Assembly: GCA_902770195.1 (NCBI GenBank)
Contig: CACXSA010000020.1
Coordinates: 1 to 55,981, forward strand
From: an uncultured Prevotellaceae bacterium
Lineage (GTDB): Bacteria; Bacteroidota; Bacteroidia; Bacteroidales; Bacteroidaceae
DNA: 55,981 nt
Direction: 5' to 3'
Positions 25,478 to 28,359 of the stretch are shown piece after piece. The notes beneath the pieces are model-generated. The model saw nothing but the letters and a program-made list of their open reading frames with translations. It was not told the origin of the DNA and ran no database searches. The position numbers and the translations under genes were made by a program. Each line of letters starts with the position of its first letter. The first letter of the stretch is position 1.

Positions 25478-25684
25478 GTACTTTGTTGTCACCACAAAAC
25501 GCCGCCGGGGGTCGCGGGAAGACTTTGTGGTGCACCACAATCGCCGCCAAGGGTCGCGGGAAGACTTTGTGGTCAACCACAAAACGCCGCCAAGGGTCGC
25601 GGGAAGACTTTGTGGTCACCACAAAACGCCGCTGGGGGTCGCGGGAAGACTTTGTAACCGTTACAAACCGCTGTCGGGGCTAAA
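25478..25684. repeat. Five 42-bp units with covarying palindromes between convergent genes
   Basis: Units start (ACCACAA or equivalent) at 25491, 25534, 25576, 25618 and 25660: 43, 42, 42 and 42 bases apart. Each has a core CGCCGCC-(A/G)-GGGTCGCGGGAAGA and a palindrome at the joint, TTTGTGGT-n-ACCACAAA. In the last joint both arms have changed together to TTTGTAAC-cg-GTTACAAA. There is no coding evidence. The array lies between the ends of the MFS and DUF1537 genes. Confidence 0.9.
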
Positions 25685-25719
25685 GAATACACGATATGCC
25701 CCGATGCCGGTCCTTTTTT

Positions 25720-27468
25720 TTATCTCAACTTCAGATAGACTTCGCGCAGCGAGTCTTCGTTGCCCACATTGCCGGGGAAGATGATGTAGGGGAAGTGGGG
25801 AGCCATGACGCAGGGCACGCTAGGGATGACTTGTCCCAGGACGCGGGCGGAGCGGATGCCGAGGCCCTTGGTCAGGATGTCGTGCGACGTGATGCCACCC
25901 TTGCCCACGAGGTAGGAGGGGGTGAAGGGCAGACGATAGACGATATCGACGAGGAAGTCGCTGACCTGCTGGCCGAGGTGTTGGCGCTGGTCGGCATCGT
26001 CGAGTCGGATTTCCTGTCGCGAGGTATAGATGACGGGTGTCAGCCCGATTTCCACTACTTGGCGGATGGTGTCGAGGGTCTCGCTCATCAGCAGGGCGGA
26101 ATCGTCGAGGATGCGCTGCACATCGACCTCGATGGCGCAGGTGCCTTCTGCCTGCAGGAGTTGTTCCAGCTGAAGGGTGGTCTTTTTGACATGCGAGCCT
26201 ACCACGAAGCAGCCGGGATTGAGAGGGGTGATGTCTGATGGATGATGGCTGAGGGCTGAGGGCTGAGGGCTGAAGGCAGAGGGATGAGGGCTGAGGGATG
26301 ATGTCGGAGGGGTGAGAATGGAGCGGTCGAGTAGGGGGATGTCGCTGATGCCGCTGATGGCCTTGGGCAGCGAGGATGAGGAGCGGATGACGATGGCGGA
26401 GGGATGAAGGCTGAGGGCTGAGGGCTGAGGGCTGATGGATGATGTCGGAGCGAGGATGTCGGAGGTCAGATGGCGGGCGAAGCGATAGAGCTCGTCGTAC
26501 GACTCGGCATCGACTATCTCGTAGTCGTCAGGGTCGGCACCTTTCTCCTTGATATATTCCGTGAGGATGCTGGTGTGATAGGCAAAGACATTGTCGTGGG
26601 CAAATTCCGTCTGGCTGACGGGGATAAGCTGCTTGCCGTCGCGCATGTAATGGATGCCGTCGATGGTGACGCGCCCTGCCTCGATGAAGGCGGGACAGAA
26701 GGGAGTCTTCTCGTAAACGCTGTACCCATGCTCCACAAGGCACTGGCGCATGACGTCGGTCTCCAAAGGGAAATGGCCGCGCAGACAGCTGTCTGAGCGG
26801 CTGACGATGATGAGCTGGTAGCCATAGTCCTGATTCACCTTGACGACCATCTCCATTGCCTCGCGTGTCACTTCAGCAGCATCCTCGCGCGTCATCGCAC
26901 GGGTGTTGGTGAGGATGTAGAAGAATGCCTCGCTGTCCTCGAAGCCAAGACGCACGCTCTCTTCGTCCCATCGGGTGATCAACAGACACCCATGTACGGT
27001 CTGAATACCTGTCGGGTCGTCATCAAGTACGACCATTTTCCATCTTACTTTGCCCCCTAAGTTAGGGGGTTGGGGGTCTGAACCAGCGTCGTGTAAGCCC
27101 CTGATTTCATTTATTTCTTTAATATTCATCCTTATACACTTAATAACATTCTCAACATTCTCCTCAACCTCTTCATTCCTAAAACGAACAACACGAATCT
27201 TATAGTTGTTTAAGAACTCAGTCCTTTCACTATCCTTTTGCTTTGCCTCAGGTGTGTTATGCACTTCGCCGTCCAGTTCTATGCATAGCCTTAATTCAGG
27301 ACAATAAAAGTCTAAGACATAGGGGCCGAACCCATGTTGCTGCCGAAATTTGTAACCATCCACTTGTCTTTTGCAAAGATGTTTCCATAGTTTAACCTCC
27401 ATCGGCGTTCTGGTCTTGCGTAATAATTGCCGATATTCTTTGTTTCCAGGATGGTTTGAGTAGTTCAT
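25720..27468 (-). CDS. DUF559 nuclease-like domain fused in frame to a DUF1537 four-carbon acid sugar kinase
   Basis: One frame encodes two unrelated parts. Residues 1-125 are a DUF559 domain (KTRTPMEVKLWKHLCK, KFRQQHGFGPYVLDFYCPEL, CIELDGEVH), a small PD-(D/E)xK-like nuclease fold. After a repeat-encoded linker (QPPNLGG), residues 145-582 are a DUF1537/OtnK-type kinase: VVLDDDPTGIQTVHG, ILTNTRAMT, VSRSDSCLRGHFP, FVVGSHVKKTT and the C-terminal VGKGGITSHD ATP site. The kinase could be translated alone from an internal ATG at 27036. The fusion probably arose when a DUF559 cassette entered between this gene and its upstream partner. Two proline/serine stretches inside the kinase (SPQPSALS-type) are translated heptamer repeats. 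Confidence 0.85.
   Translation of the reverse strand: MNYSNHPGNKEYRQLLRKTRTPMEVKLWKHLCKRQVDGYKFRQQHGFGPYVLDFYCPELRLCIELDGEVHNTPEAKQKDSERTEFLNNYKIRVVRFRNEEVEENVENVIKCIRMNIKEINEIRGLHDAGSDPQPPNLGGKVRWKMVVLDDDPTGIQTVHGCLLITRWDEESVRLGFEDSEAFFYILTNTRAMTREDAAEVTREAMEMVVKVNQDYGYQLIIVSRSDSCLRGHFPLETDVMRQCLVEHGYSVYEKTPFCPAFIEAGRVTIDGIHYMRDGKQLIPVSQTEFAHDNVFAYHTSILTEYIKEKGADPDDYEIVDAESYDELYRFARHLTSDILAPTSSISPQPSALSLHPSAIVIRSSSSLPKAISGISDIPLLDRSILTPPTSSLSPHPSAFSPQPSALSHHPSDITPLNPGCFVVGSHVKKTTLQLEQLLQAEGTCAIEVDVQRILDDSALLMSETLDTIRQVVEIGLTPVIYTSRQEIRLDDADQRQHLGQQVSDFLVDIVYRLPFTPSYLVGKGGITSHDILTKGLGIRSARVLGQVIPSVPCVMAPHFPYIIFPGNVGNEDSLREVYLKLR
26236..26440. repeat. GGGCTGA/GGGATGA heptamer runs inside the DUF1537 gene
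   Basis: Two runs of 7-bp units (about 26236-26302 and 26397-26440 on the plus strand) encode SPQPSALS-like repeats on the minus strand, between the two halves of the kinase. The frame is kept. This is a third heptamer family in the window. Confidence 0.85.
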
Positions 27469-27538
27469 CCTTGTTTTCTTTCGTTTGTTTTTCGATTGTT
27501 CAGACCCCTGTGGCCCCCTAACTTAGGGGGCGCAAAAG
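27048..27538. mobile_element. Candidate cassette: DUF559 ORF between inverted G/C-rich repeats
   Basis: Left end 27048-27083 (CTTTGCCCCCTAAGTTAGGG... GGGGTCTGAAC) and right end 27498-27538 (GTTCAGACCCCTG... CTAACTTAGGG...CAAAAG) are reverse complements with small gaps. Between them lies the DUF559 frame. The right end supplies the last codons (C-A-P) and TAA stop of the upstream BKACE gene; the left end is read through into DUF1537. Each end also contains its own palindrome CCCCCTAA-n-TTAGGGGG. Mobility is inferred. Confidence 0.65.
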
Positions 27539-28359
27539 ATGTGTTGCATTTCTCTTGCTTCATCGGGTGTGGCAGGTTCGCAGCCCATCATGCGGATGAG
27601 GGCCACCAGGCGCTCCACCAGTTCGGCATTGGTGTGGGCACGCTTGCCGGGAGCGTAATAGAAGCTGTCCTCGAAACCTACGCGGACGGCAGAGGCTCCC
27701 ATGCCGATGGCACAGGCCAGCATGGAGAAGTCCTTCATAGAATCGTGGGTGATGCCCCACGAACAGCCTGGCTCCATCAGCGAGCAGAGCATGGCCAGAT
27801 TGCGACCTGTAGCGGAGAGGTTGCTGGAATTGCCAGGACCCACGCAGAAGTTATAGTGCAGGGGGCGATGGATGACGCCCTCGTCGGCCAGACGGGTGGC
27901 ACACTCCACGTGGCTGAGGTCGAACAGCTCCATCTCGGGCACGGTGTTCGTCTCGTCCAGTCGCTTGGCCCAATAGCGCAGGTCGGGCATGGTGTTGACA
28001 TATACCGTTTCGCCAAAATTCACACTACCCATATTTAGTGAGGCCACCTCCACCTCAGGCACATCGAGCGACACACAACGCTCGGCGAGCGTCAGCGTGG
28101 AGAGTCCGCCGGTAGAGCCCTGCACAATCATGTCGGTCTCCTTGCGAATCAGTCCGATGGTCTGGCGGAACACGTCCAGTTCGAACGTCGGATTGCCCTG
28201 AAGGTCGCGGGTGTGCAGGTGAACCTCGCAGGCTCCGGCCTTATAGCAATTGATGGTATCTTCCGCAATCTCCTCGGGAGTCAGCGGATTCTTACATTCG
28301 GCAGGAATCTCCTTGCCCACATGGCAAACGGGTGCCACCGTCACAATAATCTTACGCAT
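27523..28359 (-). CDS. BKACE-family beta-keto acid cleavage enzyme
   Basis: A 278-residue DUF849/BKACE enzyme, a family that condenses a beta-keto acid with acetyl-CoA; the founding member cleaves 3-keto-5-aminohexanoate. Motifs: KNPLTPEEIAEDTINCYKAGA, zinc-binding VHLHTRD, VQGSTGG, NMGSVNFG, HYNFCVGPG and the C-terminal RVGFEDSFYYAPGKRA. The start is set at MRKIIVTVAPVCHVG (28359). A longer frame upstream to 29001 is antisense to the hemerythrin gene and not coding. The stop codon lies within an inverted repeat of the DUF559 cassette. It probably works with the DUF1537 kinase encoded next. Confidence 0.92.
   Translation of the reverse strand: MRKIIVTVAPVCHVGKEIPAECKNPLTPEEIAEDTINCYKAGACEVHLHTRDLQGNPTFELDVFRQTIGLIRKETDMIVQGSTGGLSTLTLAERCVSLDVPEVEVASLNMGSVNFGETVYVNTMPDLRYWAKRLDETNTVPEMELFDLSHVECATRLADEGVIHRPLHYNFCVGPGNSSNLSATGRNLAMLCSLMEPGCSWGITHDSMKDFSMLACAIGMGASAVRVGFEDSFYYAPGKRAHTNAELVERLVALIRMMGCEPATPDEAREMQHIFCAP

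Follow-up and report, generated by a model that had tools for sequence, protein, structure and literature searches.

How did a nuclease-like gene framed by inverted repeats come to lie between a BKACE gene and a DUF1537 kinase gene, with its reading frame open into the kinase? The locus is in a 55,981-nucleotide stretch of DNA (hereafter the window) of an uncultured Prevotellaceae bacterium (GenBank assembly GCA_902770195.1, contig CACXSA010000020.1). The nuclease-like gene belongs to the DUF559 family, and the initial annotation, made from the sequence of the window, regarded it as a cassette that had entered the BKACE|DUF1537 junction and captured the start of the kinase gene. Our answer is that it is a small mobile element: its inverted ends, each composed of a palindrome and a tag, may be able to fold as intrastrand triplexes, and its sole gene would encode a Vsr-like PD-(D/E)XK nuclease that recognises these ends. 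We give this reading a probability of about 0.7.

The DUF559 element and its empty sites

DUF559 is the single recognised gene (PF04480, E = 1.8e-30) between two exact palindromes, CCCCCTAAGTTAGGGGG and CCCCCTAACTTAGGGGG (Table 1), which belong to inverted G/C-rich arms as the initial annotation had described. The arms comprise 18 nt at 100% and 16 nt at 88% identity, together about 37-39 nt. Each end unit runs from a palindrome (CCCCCTAAnTTAGGGGG) through a short spacer to a G-rich tag, and the two units are inverted; the window holds 2 matches to the palindrome with up to three mismatches, compared with 0.08 expected. The stop codon of the BKACE gene lies inside the right palindrome, and the left end is translated as the linker PQPPNLGG in a minus-strand frame that continues from DUF559 into the SBD_N and NBD_C domains of the kinase. 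Both points had been noted correctly.

A search with the joined flanks covered 398 genomes of the genus. Among its best listed matches, 20 stretches were selected, of which 16 represent this junction. Fourteen of the 16 relatives are empty, their aligned gene ends lying 33-190 bp apart, one (L217) has a decayed copy and one (L216) has the same element. BKACE has a stop codon of its own in the few empty relatives that were translated by eye. The proposal that the cassette entered an existing junction is thus borne out. The decayed copy keeps the right palindrome and has lost the left palindrome and the nuclease. The nuclease was seemingly lost by a deletion between the short direct repeats TTCATCCTT. 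The L216 element is identical to that of the window at 478/478 positions, within flanks that match at 300/324, 279/294, 321/340 and 387/400 positions in four blocks (about 95% identity). At this divergence, the element should carry about 25 differences, and none was observed; the simplest reading is a recent element-only transfer between the two species or a renewed insertion at the same point. A target-site duplication was looked for at the window site and none was found.

The claimed capture of the kinase start was not upheld, because an ATG lies at the same codon as the kinase's own in 13/16 relatives, 11 of these 13 being empty. It is absent in L218, L219 and L228; the script placed it at the same column in 10/16, and L226, L227 and L229 were read by eye where the script's alignment had shifted. 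As for the proposed nuclease-kinase fusion, the open frame is indeed continuous. However, since the kinase has its own ATG, common to most relatives, the frame is one of read-through, and a single fused protein need not be made from it.

Inverted ends of DUF559 genes in other genomes

DUF559 was matched in 71 of 120 sampled genomes of the genus, in 63 of them at E below 1e-15. The 111 loci analysed (108 distinct) were that of the window, 30 supplied by the DUF559 search and 80 hand-picked among the matches listed, the last comprising 20 chosen mainly for long open frames and 60 taken down the list by score, with fragments and weak matches excluded. Inverted ends with a score of at least 30 were found at 92/107 loci with enough flank, compared with 1/100 control flanks 935-1400 bp away and 4/107 for the best of ten shuffles. 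At a score of at least 40, the corresponding numbers were 82, 0 and 0. These counts do not represent independent events, since many of the loci lie at shared sites. The end tags are GGGGTGAGGG- or GGGGGTCT-like.

The association was also seen outside the genus. Inverted ends were present at 18/30 DUF559 loci in the phylum draw (control 0/25). Among 80 named relatives, 70 of which had enough flank, they were present at 29/32 loci of Bacteroidota and 32/38 loci of others (controls 0/30 and 0/30), a split made from record titles in which a few titled only 'bacterium' were placed in the others; some Bacteroidota loci (e.g. L339 and L396) are the same records as in the genus draw. The other relatives sampled include Nitrospirota, Pseudomonas, Betaproteobacteria, Planctomycetota and Patescibacteria. 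The comparison of DUF559 flanks suggested by the initial annotation therefore turned out in its favour, and we found neither a repeat-free DUF559-DUF1537 fusion in all relatives nor a general lack of such ends around DUF559 genes elsewhere.

One locus, L089, carries a DUF559 element with unusually long inverted ends (~84 bp). At another, G028:C36:261797-262210, two separate DUF559 pieces adjoin a window-type palindrome, and this is probably a dying element. No DNA match to the element was found in plasmids. Annotated phages gave two partial, weak DUF559 matches. Two unannotated gut phage genomes, MT835749.1 and MT835756.1, contain partial DUF559-like stretches (~40% identical), and viral contigs gave 80 relatives with identities of at most 44%.

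Gene-less copies and palindrome numbers

The genome of the window (86.6% complete) contains one DUF559 gene. Its palindrome, at up to two mismatches, occurs at 14 places in this genome compared with 1 for the reversed control, in agreement with the earlier description of the repeat as dispersed. Ten of these places form five pairs, 88-107 bp apart from start to start, which have inverted ends built in the same way and are too closely spaced to contain the DUF559 gene; two others belong to the window element and two are single.

In the 120 genomes, the palindrome was counted as CCCCTCCC-N2-6-GGGAGGGG (3 hits in total for the reversed control). The 63 genomes with strong DUF559 matches had a median of 12 and a mean of 28 palindromes, whereas the 57 others, which include eight with weak matches, had a median of 0 and a mean of 2 (p = 3e-11); at least 10 palindromes were found in 33/63 and 2/57, respectively. 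Since the element's own ends add to the count, two were subtracted per DUF559 match, which left medians of 8 and 0 (p = 2e-7) and at least 10 copies in 29/63 compared with 2/57. The exact window palindrome occurs in 19/120 genomes. At least seven exact copies were found in 7/63 genomes with and 0/57 without strong DUF559 (p = 0.009), and any copy in 12/63 and 7/57 (p = 0.22). In four of the seven genomes with at least seven copies (G000, G031, G044 and G116), a DUF559 gene lies between the listed places. G117 has 14 window palindromes, yet ends of that family are absent from all five of its DUF559 loci that were retrieved.

The repetitive extragenic palindromic (REP)-associated tyrosine transposase (RAYT) was considered as the mover of the palindromes and rejected. 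Genomes with and without Y1_Tnp did not differ clearly in how many palindromes they have (median 1 vs 1, mean 21 vs 8, p = 0.06). Five of ten Y1_Tnp loci have inverted ends (score 33-259) and five do not, the positions of L127, L132 and L135 being rough (contig edges). With one sequence pattern applied to both sets, the DUF559-type unit was found at 0/10 Y1_Tnp loci and, once or more, at 85/108 DUF559 loci.

Predicted triplex plan of the ends and co-variation with DUF559

The available text of Holder et al. 2015 (PMC4666352) describes an Escherichia coli motif studied as an intrastrand triplex, with the same hairpin and G-rich tag as the DUF559 ends. We compared each tag with the reversed purine arm of its palindrome under the purine-motif rule (G opposite G, T or A opposite A), using whichever strand matched better, both for a unit's own tag and for swapped ones. 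Across 157 end units, the tags matched the purine arm at 0.90, compared with a mean of 0.83 and a maximum of 0.85 in 300 swaps. Predicted triads reached at least 85% in 130/157 units, compared with a mean of 88 and a maximum of 100 units for swapped tags. Where triads made up at least 70% of a unit, the tag base was G in 901/954 positions opposite G, and opposite A it was T in 122, A in 62, G in 14 and C in 6. A variant with the hairpin read on an arbitrary strand gave a weaker difference (0.668 vs 0.634, maximum 0.644). Both window ends fit the predicted rule (TTAGGGGG with GGGGGTCT and AGGGGTCT): the left end matches at 5/5 G and 1/1 A and the right end at 4/5 G and 1/1 A (labelled R and L, respectively, in the test, the gene being on the minus strand).

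The ends also vary together with the protein. Between different sites, end similarity tracks DUF559 similarity with a Mantel Spearman coefficient of 0.42, which was reached in 0/999 permutations (maximum 0.23; 84 loci).

A piece of the same kind is found in E. coli itself. A DUF559 element of Pseudomonas ullengensis has matches in 3622/5426 E. coli genomes, none covering 80% of the element, so that E. coli has end-like pieces without the whole element. In E. coli PCN033, a 114-bp inverted pair between yjdP and phnP matches the ends of the Pseudomonas element at 35/36 and 37/39 positions. The E. coli motifs (TM_ECO) thus have the same sequence plan as the DUF559 ends. Here, however, the units frame a nuclease gene, whereas the E. 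coli motif has no reported mobile element in the available text, and its authors found no association with transposons, phages or plasmids (PMC4666352). In the same text, inverted pairs combine type A and type B spacers. This spacer rule fits the single Pseudomonas element compared and was rejected for Prevotella, in which 10/32 readable elements have the same spacer at both ends compared with 5.4 expected. No published link between DUF559 and repeats was found in the literature searched, most subscription papers and all bioRxiv preprints being outside its scope.

The DUF559 enzyme

DUF559 matches the endonuclease-like protein PDB 3hrl by sequence (E = 6.9e-16). An alignment of 50 DUF559 sequences has thirteen invariant columns, including E24, E64, D66, H70 and D79, and D53 is nearly invariant; it thus contains the conserved acidic and histidine residues predicted to form the active site of a Vsr-like PD-(D/E)XK nuclease. 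A Pfam scan of the window protein gave DUF559, weakly MTES_1575 and two sub-threshold families, and no transposase (DDE, HUH, serine or tyrosine). Of 15 pairs in a selection test, 7 were saturated and 8 gave a ratio of nonsynonymous to synonymous substitution rates (dN/dS), which was 0.10, 0.135 and 0.18 in the three pairs with dS below 1 and 0.004-0.076 in the five others with dS above 2. By these sequence estimates, DUF559 is under purifying selection.

A protein of the same domain family, Caulobacter VsrA, is reported as a mismatch-repair type enzyme in the available text of PMC12907096, where E73-D102-D115-H119 and D124 are its proposed residues and no link to repeats is discussed. The spacing of E24-D53-D66-H70 equals that of the first four, whereas D124 has no match at its spacing in DUF559, D79 being differently placed.

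Such a protein might be a passenger or guardian: the palindromes would owe their spread to repair slippage or a different enzyme, and the gene would have been captured between two of them, perhaps for hairpin processing. Single palindromes, palindromes in some genomes without strong DUF559 and the reported action of the Caulobacter protein in repair (PMC12907096) all agree with this. However, DUF559 alone is recognised in the element, the end sequence co-varies with the DUF559 sequence, and Y1_Tnp, as described above, neither clearly predicts palindromes nor has the DUF559-type unit at its loci. We consider a passenger role quite improbable.

Insertion in frame into host proteins

The DUF559 frame runs out through the right end in 27/85 elements (scores of at least 36) and through both ends in 10 of these 27, counts that are raised by the choice of 20 loci for long frames. 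The 108 loci contain 39 DUF559 frames of at least 250 codons. An end unit can be an open frame (PPNLGG and PSPRRGE are examples of its translation), which allows the element to lie in frame within host genes or next to them and to be translated from these genes. By Pfam, DUF559 is inside or fused to LeuS, ABC_tran, DegT aminotransferases, PAD_porph, epimerase, guanylate kinase (gmk), IspF (YgbB), amino acid kinase, DprA, SpoU methylase and HAD hydrolase, and in two genomes it lies in an AAA_11/AAA_12 protein, at the same place by eye. No second Pfam family was found at 1e-10 in L054, L118 and L120; from motifs, we take the L120 partner to be RNase H and further partners to be MetH and HsdR. 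No splicing domain was detected in 18 fused proteins at E of at most 1e-10, introns not being part of the search.

One loop of LeuS is used repeatedly. Among 50 loci, 20 of which were picked for a split match or a long frame, the loop is plain (16-17 residues) in 32, has 20-23 residues in 3 and has 27 or more in 15. Several of the longer loops are palindrome units of different families and one is a whole DUF559 element. In other genera of the class, L284 and L287 have DUF559 at apparently the same LeuS place. The loop with in-frame inserts of several palindrome families (L048, L049 and L166-L178) sits just before the editing domain.

Possible turnover at shared sites and vertical descent

Seventy-six of the 108 loci sit at 21 shared sites. 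A 596-bp DUF559 element of one species is missing in a close one, the matching stretch being 96% identical (G026/G003). At another site shared by these two species (L276; L329/L330), both have a short element, and the palindrome families differ. The LeuS pair G089 and G058 was too diverged to give exact borders in the search for a target-site duplication. Of 29 same-site pairs, six have an element more alike than both flanks: 99.4 compared with 90.1 and 91.5 in L103/L106, 99.0 with 87.5 and 94.3 in L025/L033, and 88.5 with 72.9 and 78.9 in L062/L065, for example. One pair is intermediate.

Vsr-like homing endonucleases and free-standing homing endonuclease genes exist, and DUF559 might be a plain gene of this kind that cuts only allelic empty sites, its inverted ends being docking or silencing sequences and not transposon ends. 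The shared sites with their site-wise phylogeny, the element-only identity in window/L216, L103/L106 and L025/L033, and the repeated use of the LeuS loop would all be expected from homing. Homing alone, however, leaves unexplained the copies that are scattered through the genome with these ends and no gene, and we judge it unlikely as the whole account.

Several observations count against a mobile element. Fifteen of the 107 genus loci have no clear inverted ends, and of the low-scoring loci some have decayed palindromes and others none. Among the 57 genomes without strong DUF559, six have at least 5 palindromes (57 in G101, which is 73% complete, 12 in G032, and 5-8 in four), and 11/63 genomes with strong DUF559 have none. 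The G026/G003 pair lacks a target-site duplication, its border differing by a few bases with small local changes. The DUF559 tree clusters by genomic site (29 changes compared with 59 shuffled, minimum 20), and in 22/29 same-site pairs the element is less alike than both flanks; for these two reasons, vertical inheritance could account for much of the distribution seen today. Nor does nuclease activity by itself imply mobility, since the Caulobacter protein is reported as a repair-type enzyme.

Both same-site patterns fit turnover at preferred sites, and the less-alike pattern also fits vertical descent with fast change. Taken to its end, vertical descent would make DUF559 a domesticated, fast-evolving gene and the repeats terminators or structural elements without mobile meaning. 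The clustering of the tree and the 22/29 pairs speak for this. The existence of empty and filled sites weakens it already, and the empty sites in close relatives, the 478/478 identity between species and the different palindrome families at one orthologous site of two close species make it very improbable. The mobile element remains our preferred reading.

Other features of the window

The features of the locus are given in Table 1. Within the DUF1537 kinase gene, GGGCTGA-type heptamer repeats (26240-26303 and 26400-26443) are translated as SALSPQPSALSxHPS between the two domains of the kinase, and they may represent a further repeat inserted in frame. Between a major facilitator superfamily (MFS) transporter gene and the kinase gene, at 25500-25697, a G/C-rich repeat of 42-43 bp is present in four copies.

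Table 1 Coordinates of the DUF559 element and its neighbours in the window.
Feature	Position	Strand	Remarks
Whole DUF559 element	27053..27530	.	478 bp, between BKACE and DUF1537 kinase; 14 empty relatives, one decayed copy, one 478/478 copy
Left end	27053..27088	+	Palindrome 27053-27069 (CCCCCTAAGTTAGGGGG), spacer TT, predicted third-strand tag GGGGGTCT (27072-27079), remaining inverted repeat to 27088
Right end, inverted copy	27493..27530	-	Tag AGACCCC (27502-27508), palindrome 27514-27530 (CCCCCTAACTTAGGGGG)
DUF559 nuclease domain, predicted Vsr-like PD-(D/E)XK	27121..27438	-	PF04480; PDB 3hrl match; invariant residues
Open frame DUF559 - PQPPNLGG linker (left end translated) - DUF1537 kinase, 582 aa	25720..27468	-	
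DUF1537 kinase (SBD_N + NBD_C)	25720..27036	-	From ATG 27034-27036; ATG at that codon in 13/16 relatives
BKACE gene	27523..28359	-	Last codons and TAA (27523-27525) supplied by right palindrome; empty relatives differ there

Relation to known elements and a possible mechanism

One close likeness is to the REP/RAYT systems, which include REPtrons, REP doublets forming hairpins (REPINs) and bacterial interspersed mosaic elements (BIMEs). Both have dispersed tagged palindromes, often in inverted pairs, and one gene between two units, as at the DUF559 loci (92/107 compared with 1/100 in the control). A RAYT gene and its repeat co-evolve, and DUF559 elements are alike in this. However, the REP/RAYT enzyme is a HUH tyrosine transposase and the tag is GTAG in the available text of PMC3733652, whereas the DUF559 element has a putative Vsr-like PD-(D/E)XK nuclease and a G-rich, predicted third-strand tag. 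Because the HUH enzyme and the GTAG tag are absent, the element stands outside REP/RAYT, and for this reason we call its type new; the repeat itself is known.

Insertion sequences and miniature inverted-repeat transposable elements (MITEs) share terminal inverted repeats and gene-less derivatives, but a known transposase is absent from the scan of the window protein. Rickettsia palindromic elements (RPEs) lie in frame within protein genes like DUF559 elements, and no nuclease-bearing form is described in the available text (PMC10969869); this likeness is one of description, not of aligned sequences. Homing endonuclease genes and inteins are similar in their small nuclease, shared sites in conserved genes and element-only identity between species. 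DUF559 elements differ from them in having inverted ends and gene-less dispersed copies, and no splicing domain in the fused proteins scanned. By analogy, the best reading is that the element works like a REP/RAYT system with an unrelated enzyme, together with a homing-like reuse of sites.

The data show that gene and ends are associated, that related species have filled and empty sites, that short copies with the same ends lack the gene, and that the ends co-vary with the protein and the tag with the stem. We infer that DUF559 moves the element. DUF559 would recognise its cognate end, folded or duplex, and nick or cut there; the cognate ends may be acted on as folded single strands, as REPs are by RAYTs. 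Repair or replication would then place the element at a new or allelic site. In this way, DUF559 could move itself and, in trans, the short gene-less copies, and the element could re-enter favoured sites, in some cases by homing between species.

The initial annotation, which spoke of a new kind of homing or repeat-driven element, is partly supported: its direction was right and its capture of the kinase start was not. It did not include the short copies that lack the gene, the predicted triplex plan that the ends follow, their match to known E. coli triplex repeats or the in-frame insertions into conserved enzymes.

In a wider sense, and with somewhat less confidence than in the element itself, we favour the view that the widespread intrastrand-triplex repeats of bacteria owe their mobility to DUF559, the mobiliser that had been missing. 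This would be a new class of mobile elements with triplex ends, a Vsr-like nuclease as the only enzyme, in-frame insertion into conserved proteins and homing between species. If this is true, a widespread domain of unknown function would gain a function, and another type of nuclease would join the few enzymes that move DNA. It would also provide a cause for a class of repeats that is linked with genome instability, and a way for conserved proteins to acquire palindromes and whole nuclease domains within their reading frames.
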